Shown: positions 47,126 to 54,314 of the stretch, in pieces
How the letters are laid out: every line of letters begins with the position of its first letter
How positions within the stretch are numbered: the stretch's first letter is position 1
Assembly (NCBI GenBank): GCA_002898315.1
Contig: BEHV01000006.1
Span: 60,984-124,983 of the forward strand
Reading direction: 5' to 3'
Source of the DNA: a bacterium HR19
GTDB lineage: Bacteria; Calescibacteriota; Calescibacteriia; Calescibacteriales; Calescibacteriaceae
DNA: 64,000 nucleotides
The notes under the pieces: model-generated
Database searches by the model: none
Told to the model about the DNA's origin: nothing
Seen by the model: only the letters and a program-made list of their open reading frames with translations
Translations under genes and position numbers: made by a program

Positions 47126-47659
47126 ATGAGAGCTTGGATTTCAGCTCTGAGAATATCTTCATCAGCTCTACGAGCCGAAAGGATAAGATTGAACACTATT
47201 GCATCAAACCTTGCAAATATACATACAACAAGAACCCCAGAAGGAGGTCCTTACATGAGAAAGGAAGTCATATTCAAAGCAAAACCCGTAGATGAAAAAT
47301 TTTGGACTGAAAAAAATATATATCTCAGACCTCTTGTATTCCACCTCTCATATCTTCCTGACTTCATAAGAGAGAGGATTACAGAGAAGATTTCTGAAAC
47401 CAAAATACCGGTGGATTCAGTGCTTTCTGAGGTTGAGGTTGAGGGAATAGTTGAAGACCCAAGACCCCCGGTTCTCAAATACGAACCATATCACCCAGAT
47501 GCTGACGAGAACGGTTATGTTGCATATCCGAACATAAATCCGATAGAGGAGATGGTGAACCTTATATCAGCCCAAAGAGCTTTTGAGGCAAATGTTGCAG
47601 CAGTTAATGCGACAAGAGAAATAGCAAATACCGCATTGACAATAGGACAAAGGACATAA
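47126..47659 (+). CDS. flgC: Flagellar basal-body rod protein FlgC
   Basis: Proximal rod protein. The rod-family start is present (IRLNTIASNLANIHTTRTPEGGPYMRKEVIF) and the conserved end EMVNLISAQRAFEANVAAVNATREIANTAL. A region of about 60 residues in the centre (FWTEKN to DFIRERITEKI) is unusual, making it 177 aa against about 135-150. FlgB, which normally precedes it, is absent: rpsT is upstream. It is the first of four flagellar genes on this strand. Confidence 0.94.
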   Translation: MRAWISALRISSSALRAERIRLNTIASNLANIHTTRTPEGGPYMRKEVIFKAKPVDEKFWTEKNIYLRPLVFHLSYLPDFIRERITEKISETKIPVDSVLSEVEVEGIVEDPRPPVLKYEPYHPDADENGYVAYPNINPIEEMVNLISAQRAFEANVAAVNATREIANTALTIGQRT

Positions 47660-47687: not shown

Positions 47688-47948
47688 ATGGAGACAAAAA
47701 AAATAGACGCTGTAAAAGAGATTTTAAGCTCTGTCTCGCAGAAAATACAGAGTGTTCCTCCCGAAGAAAACAACTTTTCTGTTGAACTTCAAAAAGAGAT
47801 AGAGAAATTAAGAAGAAGCGAAAGGAAAGAGAACACAGTTCAAAAAACAGGAGAAAAAGAAAAAGTGATAACAGAAGATATAGTGCAGTTCATAAACGGT
47901 TTGTCTTTGAGAAGCAATATCATTTTGGAAAATGAAGAGAACGAGTAA
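47688..47948 (+). CDS. Small unknown protein between flgC and fliE
   Basis: 86 residues, acidic and basic mix, predicted helical, with an unstructured middle (KLRRSERKENTVQKTGEKEK) and a C-terminal IVQFINGLSLRSNIILENEENE. No family recognised. It has spacing of 28 and 27 bases to its neighbours, same strand, and a plausible start, so it probably belongs to the flagellar operon. It could be a small flagellar chaperone or a lineage-specific rod accessory. Confidence 0.6.
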   Translation: METKKIDAVKEILSSVSQKIQSVPPEENNFSVELQKEIEKLRRSERKENTVQKTGEKEKVITEDIVQFINGLSLRSNIILENEENE

Positions 47949-47975: not shown

Positions 47976-48317
47976 ATGAAGATAGATATAAACAACATAG
48001 ACCCGCGCATAACAGAGAAGATTTTCAGCAGTGAGTTTGAAAGAATAATGAGAAGCGTAAAACCGCAAGAAGAAATAAAACAAGGCGACGAAAAAGAAGA
48101 TGGATTCCTCTCCTCTCTAAAATCAGCTTTTGAAACGGTCAGAAAGGCAGAAAATGAAGCACGAGAAAAGTCAGTGAATTTGATTCTCGGAAAAACCGAA
48201 GACATACACGATGTTATGATAGCGAGAGAAAAAGCCGATACACTCTTTCAGCTTTTTTTAGAAATAAGAAACAGAGCAGTTCAAGCTTTTGAAAACATAA
48301 TGCGAATGCAATTTTAG
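47976..48317 (+). CDS. fliE: Flagellar hook-basal body complex protein FliE
   Basis: Joins the MS ring to the rod. The conserved C-terminal half is present: EDIHDVMIAREKADTLFQLFLEIRNRAVQAFENIMRMQF. The N-terminal half is variable, as usual. 113 aa, normal. It starts 27 bases after the small unknown and ends 11 bases before fliF. Confidence 0.95.
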   Translation: MKIDINNIDPRITEKIFSSEFERIMRSVKPQEEIKQGDEKEDGFLSSLKSAFETVRKAENEAREKSVNLILGKTEDIHDVMIAREKADTLFQLFLEIRNRAVQAFENIMRMQF

Positions 48318-48328
48318 AAATTAAAAAA

Positions 48329-50305
48329 ATGAGAGCACAAGACATTTTGAAACAGATAGGAGAGTCAGTAAGAAGAATCCCTCTGCCAGTCCTCATAGGA
48401 ATAGCAGCAATATTCCTCATAAGTGGAATAGGGATTTTCATCTATCAGATTACAGCATCAAAAAAACAGGAAATAAAATGGGATGTCCTTTACACAGACC
48501 TGAAATCTCAAGATGTATCAAGAATAATAGATGAACTTGAAAGAATGAAAATACCCTACAAACTTTCAGATACAGCAGATACAATTTTTGTACCAAAAGA
48601 GCTTGTTCCAGATATAAGGAACACATTAGCGACAAAAGGTCTCCCACAGGAAAGAGCGGGACTTGAAATATTTGAGAAACCCAAGTTTGGACTCACCGAG
48701 TTCATGCAAAGAGTAAATTATCAGAGGGCAATCCAGAATGAACTTGAAAGAACGATAATGAAAATAAATTGTGTTGAGAATGCGAGAGTGCACATAGTAA
48801 TTCCAGAAAAAAAACTTTTCACAGAGGAGCAAAAAGAACCCACCGCATCTGTTATGTTGTGGCTAACACCCGGATGCTCAATTTCCCCAGCATCAGTAAA
48901 AGGGATAATTCATCTTGTATCATTTGCAGTTGAAGGTCTGAAACCGGAAAATGTGTCCGTTGTTGATCAGAGAGGCAGAATACTGAACCCGAAGAAAGAA
49001 GATGAAGGATTGACAGCAGTTGAGGCAACCCAAGGGCAACTTGAACTTGAAAGGCAGTTTGAAAGAAATTTAGAAGATAAACTCACCGAACTACTTGAAA
49101 AAAGTGTAGGAGCAGGAAAAGTAGCAGTAAAGGTTGATGCTGACCTTGATTTCACAAAAGTAAAAAGAGTATCTGAAAGGTATGACCCAGCTGAAACCGC
49201 AGTAAGAAGCGAACAGACCATAGAAGAAAGATTTAAGGGAGTCGGAGCTGTACCGGTTGGTCCCCCCGGCACAAGGCAAAATGTCCCACCAGAAATTGGA
49301 ATTGAACCATTACCCGGAAAATCTGAATACGAAAGAAATGAAAGGATAAGAAATTATGAAATATCAAAGATAGTTGAGCATGTTGAAGAAGAGGTAGGAG
49401 ACCTGAAAAGGATTTCAGTCGCAGTGATGGTAGATGGGCAGTATGAGGTTGAATGGAGAGATGGGAAGCCATTCATAAGATTTATTCCACTTCCAGACGA
49501 CGAACTTGAAAAAATAAGGAGTTTTGTAGAGTCAGCAGTAGGGATAGTGCCGGCAAGGGGGGACCAGATATCTGTTGTTTCTGTACCGTTTGAAGGTTCT
49601 TTAAGATACGCTGAAAGATTAGCCATGTTACAACTTTCAGAGGTTTCTAAGGAGAGGGCGAGCATGTACAAATGGCTTGCGATAGCGGCAATAGGATTTT
49701 TCATCTCACTCTATTTGATATTCAAAAAGCTTTTTGAGAGGAGATTACCTCAGGAGGTAGAGGTTGTAATTCCGAAGTTTGAGAAAGCACCTCCGGAGAA
49801 AGTTGAAGTTCCCGTTATTGTTGAGGTTCAGCCCCCACCACCCCCGCCAGAAATAGCAATCACTCCACCAGAAGTGAAGGTTGAGGAGATAGTTCCTCCG
49901 CCTGCATTTATTGAAGTAACGCCTCCTCCTGTTCCGCAGATAGTAATAACTCCGCCCCCACCGCCACCGCCAGAAGAAGTAGCACCACCACCCCCACCAC
50001 CTCGGATAGAAGAAGTAGCTCCACCACCGCCTCCCCCACCAGAAGAGGTTGTAGTTGAGGAGATAGTTCCTCCGCCAGAGGAATTTGCCCCACCCCCTCC
50101 CCCTCCACCAAAAGAGGAGATAGAACTTCCCAAAATAGAGATAGCACCTCCGCCTCTCATTCAGATACCTGAAATAGAAGTCGCTCCACCCCCAGCAATA
50201 CCCGAAGAGGAAATTGAAAGAGCTGTTGAAATCGCAAAAGATGTGATAAGAACAAATAAGGACCTCGTTCTTAACCTCATCAGAAGATGGCTATCTGAAA
50301 GATAA
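48329..50305 (+). CDS. fliF: Flagellar MS-ring protein FliF with long polyproline linker
   Basis: Inner-membrane ring on which the flagellum is built. Helix 1 at about residues 20-42, then two ring-building domains (SRIIDELERMKIPYKL; RVHIVIPEKKLFTEEQKEPTASVMLWL; VDADLDFTKVKRVSERYDP) and helix 2 near 448-468 (WLAIAAIGFFISLYLIF). The cytoplasmic part is about 125 residues of Pro-rich repeats, then a helix (AKDVIRTNKDLVLNLIRRWLSE) matching the FliG-binding end. Length 658 aa is greater than the usual 550 because of the linker. No fliG, fliH or fliI follows: asd is next on the other strand. Confidence 0.95.
   Translation: MRAQDILKQIGESVRRIPLPVLIGIAAIFLISGIGIFIYQITASKKQEIKWDVLYTDLKSQDVSRIIDELERMKIPYKLSDTADTIFVPKELVPDIRNTLATKGLPQERAGLEIFEKPKFGLTEFMQRVNYQRAIQNELERTIMKINCVENARVHIVIPEKKLFTEEQKEPTASVMLWLTPGCSISPASVKGIIHLVSFAVEGLKPENVSVVDQRGRILNPKKEDEGLTAVEATQGQLELERQFERNLEDKLTELLEKSVGAGKVAVKVDADLDFTKVKRVSERYDPAETAVRSEQTIEERFKGVGAVPVGPPGTRQNVPPEIGIEPLPGKSEYERNERIRNYEISKIVEHVEEEVGDLKRISVAVMVDGQYEVEWRDGKPFIRFIPLPDDELEKIRSFVESAVGIVPARGDQISVVSVPFEGSLRYAERLAMLQLSEVSKERASMYKWLAIAAIGFFISLYLIFKKLFERRLPQEVEVVIPKFEKAPPEKVEVPVIVEVQPPPPPPEIAITPPEVKVEEIVPPPAFIEVTPPPVPQIVITPPPPPPPEEVAPPPPPPRIEEVAPPPPPPPEEVVVEEIVPPPEEFAPPPPPPPKEEIELPKIEIAPPPLIQIPEIEVAPPPAIPEEEIERAVEIAKDVIRTNKDLVLNLIRRWLSER
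49831..50203 (+). repeat. Polyproline repeat region of fliF
   Basis: Eleven or so blocks of three to seven prolines separated by short Glu/Ile/Val segments. A unit like (I/V)(A/T)PPPPPPPEE recurs five or six times. It encodes the cytoplasmic linker between helix 2 and the FliG-binding helix. The track's glycine-rich minus-strand ORF here is a shadow. Confidence 0.9.
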
Positions 50306-50355: not shown

Positions 50356-51360
50356 TCAGATTATATTTTTTTGATAGAGAAGTTCTGCTATTTGTACAGC
50401 GTTGAGAGCAGCTCCTTTTCGCAGGTTATCTGCAACAATCCACATAGCGAGCTCGCCTGTTTCTGTTTTTCTTATCCTTCCGACAAAAACATCGTCTGTT
50501 CCGCTCAACTCGTCAGGAGTTGGATAAATATCTTCCCTGGTGTTATTCATAAGAGTTATTCCTTTTGCAGAACTCAAAACTCTTTCTACATCAGGAAGAG
50601 CGAAATCCTTTTGAAGTTCAGCGTATACGACCTCTGAATGACAGACATAAACGGGCACCCTCACACATGTGACGCTAACCTTTATATCTGCTTCCATTAT
50701 CTTTTTCGTTTCATTCACCATCTTCATCTCTTCTTCTGTAAAGCCATTATCTAACACTTTTCCTATTCTTGGAATGAGGTTGAACGCTATTTTTTTTGGG
50801 AAGACGCCGGGGACCATATCTTTTCCTTCAAGATGAGAAACGGTACTTTCAGTGAGTTCGTCAACAGCTTTTTTTCCGGCACCAGAAACAGATTGGTAGG
50901 TAGCGACAGAAACTTTTTTCACATAAAAGGCATCATGAATAGGTTTTAGAGCAACGACGAGCTGTATTGTTGAGCAGTTCGGATTAGCGATTATTCCTTT
51001 TTTGATGTCGTTTATTCTGTGAGGATTAACTTCTGGAACTATGAGAGGGACATCGGGGTCCATTCTCCATCTTGAAGAGTTATCTATAACTATTGCTCCG
51101 CTTTTTGCGAAAAGTGGGGCAAATATTCCGCTAACGGTTGAGCCAGCAGAAAAAAGAGCTATATCTATTCCTTTGAAATCCCCATTTTCTTTGAGGGCTT
51201 TGACTTTTATCTTTTCTCCCTTGAACTCTAATTCTTCACCTTCTGATCTTTCTGAGGCGAAAAGTTTCAGTTCTTTTACGGGAAAATTTCTCTGCTCCAG
51301 GGTTTTTATCATTTCTCTTCCGACAAGTCCTGTCGCTCCTACCACTGCTACCGAATACAT
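50356..51360 (-). CDS. asd: Aspartate-semialdehyde dehydrogenase
   Basis: Second step of the aspartate pathway to lysine, diaminopimelate, methionine and threonine. VAVVGATGLVGREMIKTLEQRNFP, the catalytic NPNCSTIQLVVAL, SVSGAGKKAVDEL and FNLIPRIG are typical, and GAALNAVQIAELL ends it. 334 aa. The ATG at 51360 gives the expected start (MYSVAVVGATG). It is convergent with fliF. 106 bases separate it from the Toprim gene upstream. Confidence 0.95.
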   Translation of the reverse strand: MYSVAVVGATGLVGREMIKTLEQRNFPVKELKLFASERSEGEELEFKGEKIKVKALKENGDFKGIDIALFSAGSTVSGIFAPLFAKSGAIVIDNSSRWRMDPDVPLIVPEVNPHRINDIKKGIIANPNCSTIQLVVALKPIHDAFYVKKVSVATYQSVSGAGKKAVDELTESTVSHLEGKDMVPGVFPKKIAFNLIPRIGKVLDNGFTEEEMKMVNETKKIMEADIKVSVTCVRVPVYVCHSEVVYAELQKDFALPDVERVLSSAKGITLMNNTREDIYPTPDELSGTDDVFVGRIRKTETGELAMWIVADNLRKGAALNAVQIAELLYQKNII

Positions 51361-51466
51361 ATACAAAATTCTAATCTTGTATCGTAGATAATGTTAATAT
51401 TCCATAAAAATTATTATTGTCATTTCTCATAACTGAAATTTTTCTCGCATGTTCTGCTTTGATGAT

Positions 51467-53254: not shown

Positions 53255-53509
53255 TTATAATATTAATTTTTTACTGACAAAGAGAATTTTCTCTATTTCA
53301 ATATTTGCTTTCCAACGCTTTTTCAAGCCAGCAGAGCTTCCGGTAAATCTTAAAAGAAATGCATTATTAGAGAGTAGATATTTCCCTTCTGTATCTGATT
53401 TTTTAAAATTCTTTCTGATGTATAAAGCGTTTGCAGGTTGTGTTAGGTGTTTCAAATGCAGAGCGCTATCAAAAATTGCTGTAAATTTAATTTTAGCTTC
53501 TATTTTCAT
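53255..53509 (-). CDS. Small unknown ORF upstream of the ATPase, overlapping fliP antisense
   Basis: 84 residues (MKIEAKIKFTAIFDSALH...), no family recognised. It has AAGGTAAG about six bases before its ATG, and its stop is 22 bases before the ATPase start, so it could be the first gene of that cassette. It overlaps the first 92 bases of the fliP ORF on the other strand, so one of the two ends is probably wrong. Confidence 0.4.
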   Translation of the reverse strand: MKIEAKIKFTAIFDSALHLKHLTQPANALYIRKNFKKSDTEGKYLLSNNAFLLRFTGSSAGLKKRWKANIEIEKILFVSKKLIL

Positions 53510-54314
53510 CGTATTCTTACCTTACAAAGCTTGGTATAATTCCGAACGCTCTGGTTTTTATCATCTGGCTTTTGCAGAGGAGACAAAGCAAAAAGAACTT
53601 TCCCCTCCGCGTGCTCCTTCTAAACCAACCCCCCCTACTCCACCAATCCCCCCTATAACAATTCAGATAGGAGAAGGCAGAGAAGGATTCATAAACTCAA
53701 TAAGGATAGTTCTTCTTCTCACAATACTGACACTCGCTCCATCACTACTTATACTTATGACCTCCTTTACAAGAATAGTTATAGTCCTTTTCCTTTTGAG
53801 GCAGGCAATAGGTATAGTTCAGGTTCCACCAAACCAAGTCCTTATAGGATTGGCTTTATTTCTCTCTATTTTTATAATGAAACCCGCACTTCAAGAAAGC
53901 TATTCAAATGCTTTCAAACCTTACTCAGAGGGTAAGATTGAAGAGATAGAGTTCATTTCAAAAGCTTTTGAGCCATTCAAAAAGTTCATGCTGAAGCAGG
54001 TGGGAGAGAAAGAGCTTGATGTTTTTCTGAAAATCGCAGGTAAAGGGAGACCATCTTCTCCATCAGAAATCTCGGCAGATGTCCTGATTCCGGCATTTAT
54101 CATATCTGAAATAAAGAGGGGATTTGAGATAGGTTTTTTGATATATATTCCTTTCATAATTATTGATATTGTTATCGCATCAATACTTATGGCTATGGGA
54201 ATGATAATGGTTCCACCTATAATACTTTCTGTTCCCTTCAAACTCATAGCTTTTGTCGTAGCAGACGGGTGGACGCTTCTGACAAGCTCACTTGTAGGAA
54301 GCTTTATAAAATAA
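53418..54314 (+). CDS. fliP: Flagellar export-gate protein FliP
   Basis: Core of the flagellar type III export gate. After an N-terminal hydrophobic segment (IAVNLILASIFIVFLP) and an AFA cleavage-like site comes a proline-rich stretch (APSKPTPPTPPIPPI). The four-helix protein follows: SIRIVLLLTILTLAPSLLILMTSFTRIVIVLFLLRQAIG, then LIPAFIISEIKRGFEIGFLIYIPFIIIDIVIAS and MIMVPPIILSVPFKLIAFVVADGW. 298 aa. The start at 53418 is uncertain: it overlaps the antisense ORF, and an extended -10 lies inside the first 120 bases. fliQ and fliR do not follow. Confidence 0.9.
   Translation: MYKAFAGCVRCFKCRALSKIAVNLILASIFIVFLPYKAWYNSERSGFYHLAFAEETKQKELSPPRAPSKPTPPTPPIPPITIQIGEGREGFINSIRIVLLLTILTLAPSLLILMTSFTRIVIVLFLLRQAIGIVQVPPNQVLIGLALFLSIFIMKPALQESYSNAFKPYSEGKIEEIEFISKAFEPFKKFMLKQVGEKELDVFLKIAGKGRPSSPSEISADVLIPAFIISEIKRGFEIGFLIYIPFIIIDIVIASILMAMGMIMVPPIILSVPFKLIAFVVADGWTLLTSSLVGSFIK
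53532..53540 (+). promoter_or_regulatory. Possible extended -10 promoter inside the fliP 5' region
   Basis: TGGTATAAT matches an extended -10. It falls 115 bases inside the annotated fliP frame. If used, translation would have to start downstream, but no good start codon follows, so this may be chance or drive another transcript. Confidence 0.25.

Follow-up and report, generated by a model that had tools for sequence, protein, structure and literature searches.

A long proline-rich connector in the flagellar MS-ring protein FliF of Calescibacterota

The 64,000-nucleotide stretch of DNA analysed here (the window) comes from a genome of the hot-spring phylum Calescibacterota, 1.88 Mb in size and 82% complete, to which Ca. 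Calescibacterium nevadense and several MAGs are closely related. Flagellar motility has been inferred previously for the group (PMC4791363). The window carries a gene for the MS-ring protein FliF, with the following features.

47126..47659, + strand: flgC-like rod gene, matching PF06429 and PF00460; the name flgC is taken from length and gene order
47976..48317, + strand: fliE, directly upstream of fliF; PF02049, E=3.7e-23
48329..50305, + strand: fliF, MS-ring protein, 658 aa; PF01514, E=2.9e-63; PF08345, E=1.3e-42; PDB FliF chains, E down to 6.7e-64
48383..48457, + strand: FliF transmembrane (TM) helix 1, aa 19-43; hydrophobic helix in the sequence and in a low-confidence model
49673..49732, + strand: FliF TM helix 2, aa 449-468; from hydropathy, with a helix at 441-469 in the low-confidence model
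49733..49786, + strand: juxtamembrane segment FERRLPQEVEVVIPKFEK, aa 469-486; nearly invariant within the phylum in an alignment of five FliF
49739..50203, + strand: proline-rich cytoplasmic linker, aa 471-625; 155 aa, 59 Pro, ten blocks of at least three Pro; coil in the low-confidence model
50204..50302, + strand: C-terminal FliG-binding tail, aa 626-658; tail profile match and two predicted helices

A Pfam scan of the fliF frame gives 213 bits for PF01514 and 146 bits for PF08345, each above the cut-off, and the two TM helices (~aa 19-43 and 449-468) flank the periplasmic part of the protein. In the low-confidence AlphaFold model, the tail is predicted to form helices at 626-642 and 644-657. 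When scored against a profile built from 123 other FliF tails, the FliG-binding tails of all five Calescibacterota FliF reach 17-21 bits, above every one of 1000 shuffled decoys, which score 9.8 bits at most. The 34-residue tail alone yielded no match in the PDB with phmmer, and a fold search with the AlphaFold model, which does not probe the linker, returned FliF and injectisome homologues only. By every defining feature tested, the predicted protein is FliF; the Pfam domains and the tail profile match thus bear out a preliminary description of this DNA, which had placed a proline-rich segment between the second TM helix and the FliG-binding tail of a FliF. Genes for FliG, FliM and FliN are found in all five genomes of the phylum; all three proteins are canonical, FliG in its core as judged by sequence. 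Loss of the FliG contact was considered and rejected, because the FliF tail matches the profile and the FliG partner genes are present.

The gene fliE adjoins fliF in each of the five genomes. Between flgC and fliE lies an 86-aa open reading frame (window 47688-47948, + strand) with no Pfam match, which is conserved in genome G003 and weakly in G004 and possibly encodes a small flagellar protein. Downstream of fliF is a convergent gene (50356-51366, - strand) that is not fliG and that reads from its sequence as aspartate-semialdehyde dehydrogenase, asd; fliG of the source genome sits on another contig (C5). The FliP encoded at window 53418-53720 (+ strand) has a proline-rich N-terminal stretch, PTPPTPPIPP, before its FliP domain.

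The FliF tail after TM helix 2 spans 190 aa, most of which is linker. The segment originally singled out, 49831-50203, does correspond to 125 residues (aa 501-625) and holds 54 Pro, and the full segment is larger, extending over aa 471-625 with 155 residues, 38% of them Pro. The alternation of proline blocks with E/V/I-rich separators was described correctly, except that we count ten blocks of at least three Pro (lengths 6, 3, 3, 7, 6, 7, 3, 7, 3 and 3) rather than about eleven. The separators are rich in E, V, I and A, and neither Gly nor Cys occurs anywhere in aa 471-625. Among 155-aa windows taken from long open frames of the 64 kb (n=11,093), the median number of Pro is 7 and no window outside FliF has more than 18, compared with 59 in the linker, so the proline density of the linker is not due to chance. 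Five consecutive CCN codons are matched 32 times in the genome; 13 of these matches are in FliF, and every other locus has at most four overlapping matches. Polyproline as a genome-wide habit was rejected, since the other such sites are mostly single short tracts, several of them in unlikely frames. A Gly-rich frame at 49828-50160 on the - strand is merely the complement of the CCN codons of the linker.

The linker occurs in all five genomes of our phylum sample, which represents three genera of one family and in which no genome is rated over 90% complete. Its lengths are 155, 159, 171, 159 and 182 aa, with 32-39% Pro, 7-10 blocks of 3-9 Pro each, and 24-43 PP steps per linker, within FliF tails that measure 190-217 aa after TM helix 2 and contain 26-32% Pro. 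An assembly error in the repeat tract, which the preliminary description had allowed for, was rejected because the same kind of segment recurs in the separately assembled records JAUQOU010000017, AWOA01000013 and CALHPK010000009, as well as across the five genomes.

For comparison with other bacteria, we used a sample spread over bacterial families, in which FliF was found in 162 of 386 genomes, ~125 proteins were fetched and 123 were measured. In this set, which favours FliF with good PF08345 scores, the tail after TM helix 2 has a median of 75 aa (5-95%, 62-104; maximum, 176) and a median of 5.8% Pro (maximum, 13.6%), with no Pro run above three. The assertion that usual FliF linkers are shorter and less proline-rich is thus correct, and a linker like the present one is absent from all 123. 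Its presence in most FliF, which the preliminary description had named as a refutation, is therefore not borne out in this set. Outside the measured set, one FliF (L116) has a Pro run of four, and another from outside the family sample (L196) carries five consecutive Pro in a short tail. Two FliF, L140 (from G122) and L197 (from G994), have long, proline-poor and probably helical connectors, with tails of 176 and 129 aa; these imply that connector length itself is tolerated for other reasons. Further FliF searches revealed no other long Pro-rich tail among the fetched length outliers, among the matches listed. Hence, among FliF sampled, a connector that is both long and proline-rich is found in this phylum only. 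A search of the open-access literature found no description of such a connector.

The manner in which the linker has evolved bears on whether it has a function. FliF cores within the phylum are 74-98% identical. In the five-FliF alignment the 18 residues past TM helix 2 hardly vary and the middle of the linker is indel-rich, with 42-60 gap columns between genera. The linker is thus flanked by conserved anchors, the juxtamembrane segment on one side and the FliG-binding tail on the other. Between lineages, 75-86% of aligned linker Pro are kept, against 50-59% identity at the remaining linker residues; this comparison leans upward and relies on aligning repetitive sequence. An alignment-free comparison of the five linkers agrees with this retention: each is 32-39% Pro, lacks Gly, and consists to 87-91% of P, E, V, I, K and A. 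All four Pro codons are mixed in the linker, and a comparison of the two closest species shows synonymous differences at 27 of 57 aligned Pro codons, which argues that the linker is conserved as protein and not as a DNA repeat; a DNA-level repeat was rejected on the same grounds.

These data can be set against a non-adaptive history, in which a tolerated disordered segment was expanded by slippage in the phylum ancestor and has had little function since. The indel-rich middle of the linker is as expected from such a history, as are the long connectors of other make-up in L140 and L197 and a dN/dS that, in the closest pair (G000/G003), is 0.074 for the linker and 0.021 for the core. However, Pro is retained at saturated synonymous distance with neither a stop nor a Gly, and a simulation without selection, run to the synonymous distance between G000 and G002, ends with ~5% Pro and ~10 stops, whereas 32% Pro is observed for this distance and 32-39% in every species. 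Mixed Pro codons are also unlike fresh slippage, and polyproline is costly to translate. We consider growth without function unlikely. Because Pro content and the glycine-free P/E/V/I/K/A make-up persist despite the turnover of blocks and codons, the composition is selected: as judged from these comparisons, selection acts on the amino-acid make-up of the linker and far less on the order and length of its blocks.

An alternative role of the linker would be the recruitment of a proline-binding partner. PPPxEEV and PPPPP motifs would then act as a docking platform for an export, chemotaxis or placement factor, and the linker would loop out and leave the distance between the rings unchanged. Short motifs such as PPPEEV and VEEI(K/V)PPP are indeed repeated in the linkers of the phylum, and ~34 copies per ring would provide high avidity, but no motif is strictly conserved and the number and length of blocks vary, so we regard this role as doubtful.

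A protein of this kind would be expected to depend on EF-P for its translation; EF-P-dependent pauses have been observed in B. subtilis fliF and fliY (PMC6613710). Each genome of the phylum encodes one EF-P (L001 1297-1851 in G000; L181, L182, L184 and L185 in the others), with domains PF08207, PF01132 and PF09285 all above cut-off. The preliminary description had anticipated a need for EF-P, which agrees with its presence in all five genomes, but the expectation needs revision on one point. In all five proteins the tip loop reads K[IV]AQRQPH, with Gln34 at the tip and no upstream proline. The corresponding E. coli loop in the alignment is KPGKGQAF, and the modified types have Lys or Arg at the position of this Gln. 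With Gln34 in the tip, neither of the known modification routes, on lysine (EpmA) or on arginine (EarP), would be expected to act on this EF-P. A rare class of EF-P with Gln at the tip position and without the upstream proline has been described (PMC6544042), and an EF-P with this rare tip would face, in the linker, a polyproline load that is both heavy and conserved. In G000, a fliN-like gene (L001 803-1216, - strand) lies divergently beside the EF-P gene, and the same is true in G003. We do not press this adjacency as a functional link, because it is found in G000 and G003 only, and the remaining three genomes have the two genes on separate contigs.

The same pauses raise the possibility that the polyproline serves translation timing, such that ribosomes pausing past TM helix 2 would allow this helix to insert, and FliF rings to form, before the FliG-binding tail is synthesized. 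The first PPP is 32-33 residues past TM helix 2 in G000, G003 and G004, which is about one exit-tunnel length, and the B. subtilis pauses provide a precedent (PMC6613710). However, this distance is 72 residues in G002 and 45 in G001, and 24-43 PP steps are excessive where one or two motifs would be enough. We therefore consider it very improbable that timing explains the linker.

Proline at the density found in the linker is incompatible with an alpha-helix. Gly is absent and beta-branched residues are many, so a fairly stiff, extended chain is expected, and the composition fits that expected of a proline-rich, extended polyproline-II spacer. The AlphaFold model (mean pLDDT 47, four sequences) is coil over aa 470-625 and is uninformative on polyproline-II. 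The rigid or elastic spacer proposed in the preliminary description is consistent with a linker that has no Gly and has kept its Pro content. Arithmetic with the textbook rise of 0.31 nm per residue gives a fully extended contour length of 39-48 nm for 125-155 residues. This reach is far above any plausible gap, and distance setting alone is thus insufficient to explain the length of the linker.

The connector of other FliF proteins is predicted to be mostly alpha-helical, with helices of about 6 nm (PMC6079021, PMC7355467). For Salmonella, the first FliG domain receives the FliF tail, and a helix is modelled for the stretch between TM helix 2 and this tail (PMC11087270, PMC6079021). The attachment between MS and C rings is considered to be flexible (PMC11087270). 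The usual short, mostly alpha-helical connector is absent from the protein described here, with its 155 aa of 38% Pro. The reading that we prefer, and to which we give about an even chance, is that the helical connection between MS and C rings was replaced by an acidic, glycine-free tether of polyproline-II type, and that a bundle of ~34 copies would act as a stiff, compliant spacer. In such a motor, a usual connector of a few tens of residues would have become a proline-rich tether of 155-182 residues, in which polyproline-II rods may alternate with short, extended, E/V/I-rich segments. Docking to FliG would be unchanged, through the canonical C-terminal helices of FliF. About 34 tethers would span the space between MS ring and C ring, packed together around the export gate; if the Salmonella number of ~34 copies applies, each tether would be only a few nanometres from the next, and the tethers must crowd. 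The tethers might let the C ring sit further from the MS ring or shift more freely against it, while their stiffness and crowding would centre the C ring and transmit torque. A loose tether of 155 residues would seem poor at torque transfer, and stiffness is assumed here from composition; similarly, we infer the polyproline-II form, copy number, spacing and mechanics of the tether. Looser ring-to-ring coupling with FliG docking intact would be the most likely role of the bundle. The linker suggests that the rings are coupled differently in Calescibacterota than in other bacteria.

FliG of the phylum is also extended. Its N-terminal extension is 45-58 aa in all five species (L042, L043, L044, L045 and L041), mostly K/E/Q-rich and charged, whereas 109 FliG whose genes adjoin fliF elsewhere have a median of 12 and at most 40; because starts were set at the first in-frame ATG, the lengths are upper bounds in both sets. 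With both linker and FliG extension long, both sides of the joint between MS and C rings are elongated in the phylum. The net charge of FliF from the linker start to the C-terminus is -18 to -22, and that of the FliG extensions is about +1 to +6. A more elaborate possibility is that ~34 acidic polyproline tethers and the matching FliG extensions form a ring-shaped brush, which would serve as a soft torsional coupling and as a selective sleeve at the export gate. We know of no such mechanical element in any flagellar motor, and offer this arrangement as a speculative extension that is probably not correct.

How torque and switching are passed between C ring and MS ring is an open structural question. 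According to a 2020 review, the in-situ form and dynamics of the linkage are still to be determined, and a fusion motor regained its CW/CCW bias when a flexible linker of nine residues was inserted where FliF joins FliG (PMC7355467). A connector exchanged throughout a phylum amounts to a natural experiment on the stiffness and shortness that the joint between the rings requires.

The FlhB of beta- and gamma-proteobacteria reportedly has a proline-rich element as well, likewise in a flagellar base protein, but a different one. Canonical FliF, such as Salmonella FliF in the MS-ring structures, shares with the Calescibacterota proteins the ring-building domains, two TM helices and the C-terminal FliG-binding tail, whereas its connector is short and mostly alpha-helical (PMC7355467) rather than 155-182 aa long with 32-39% Pro. 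B. subtilis FliY and FliF are similar in being flagellar base proteins whose translation needs relief of proline pauses, although the FliY pause site is a single SPP motif (PMC6613710) and the Calescibacterota linkers have 24-43 PP steps. A further likeness is to TonB and to the proline-rich domain II of TolA, where a long, Pro-rich, charged and extended spacer sits between the membrane anchor and the C-terminal binding module and transmits force; helical and proline-rich forms of TolA domain II exchange between lineages (PMC12204202). The TonB/TolA C-terminal domain is absent from FliF, in which the Pfam scan matched FliF families only. TonB and TolA are periplasmic, whereas the FliF linker is cytoplasmic, would form a ring of ~34 copies, has longer Pro runs and shares no homology with them. 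Though unrelated to these proteins, the linker would presumably have its closest functional counterpart in the proline-rich domain II found in TonB and in many TolA proteins.
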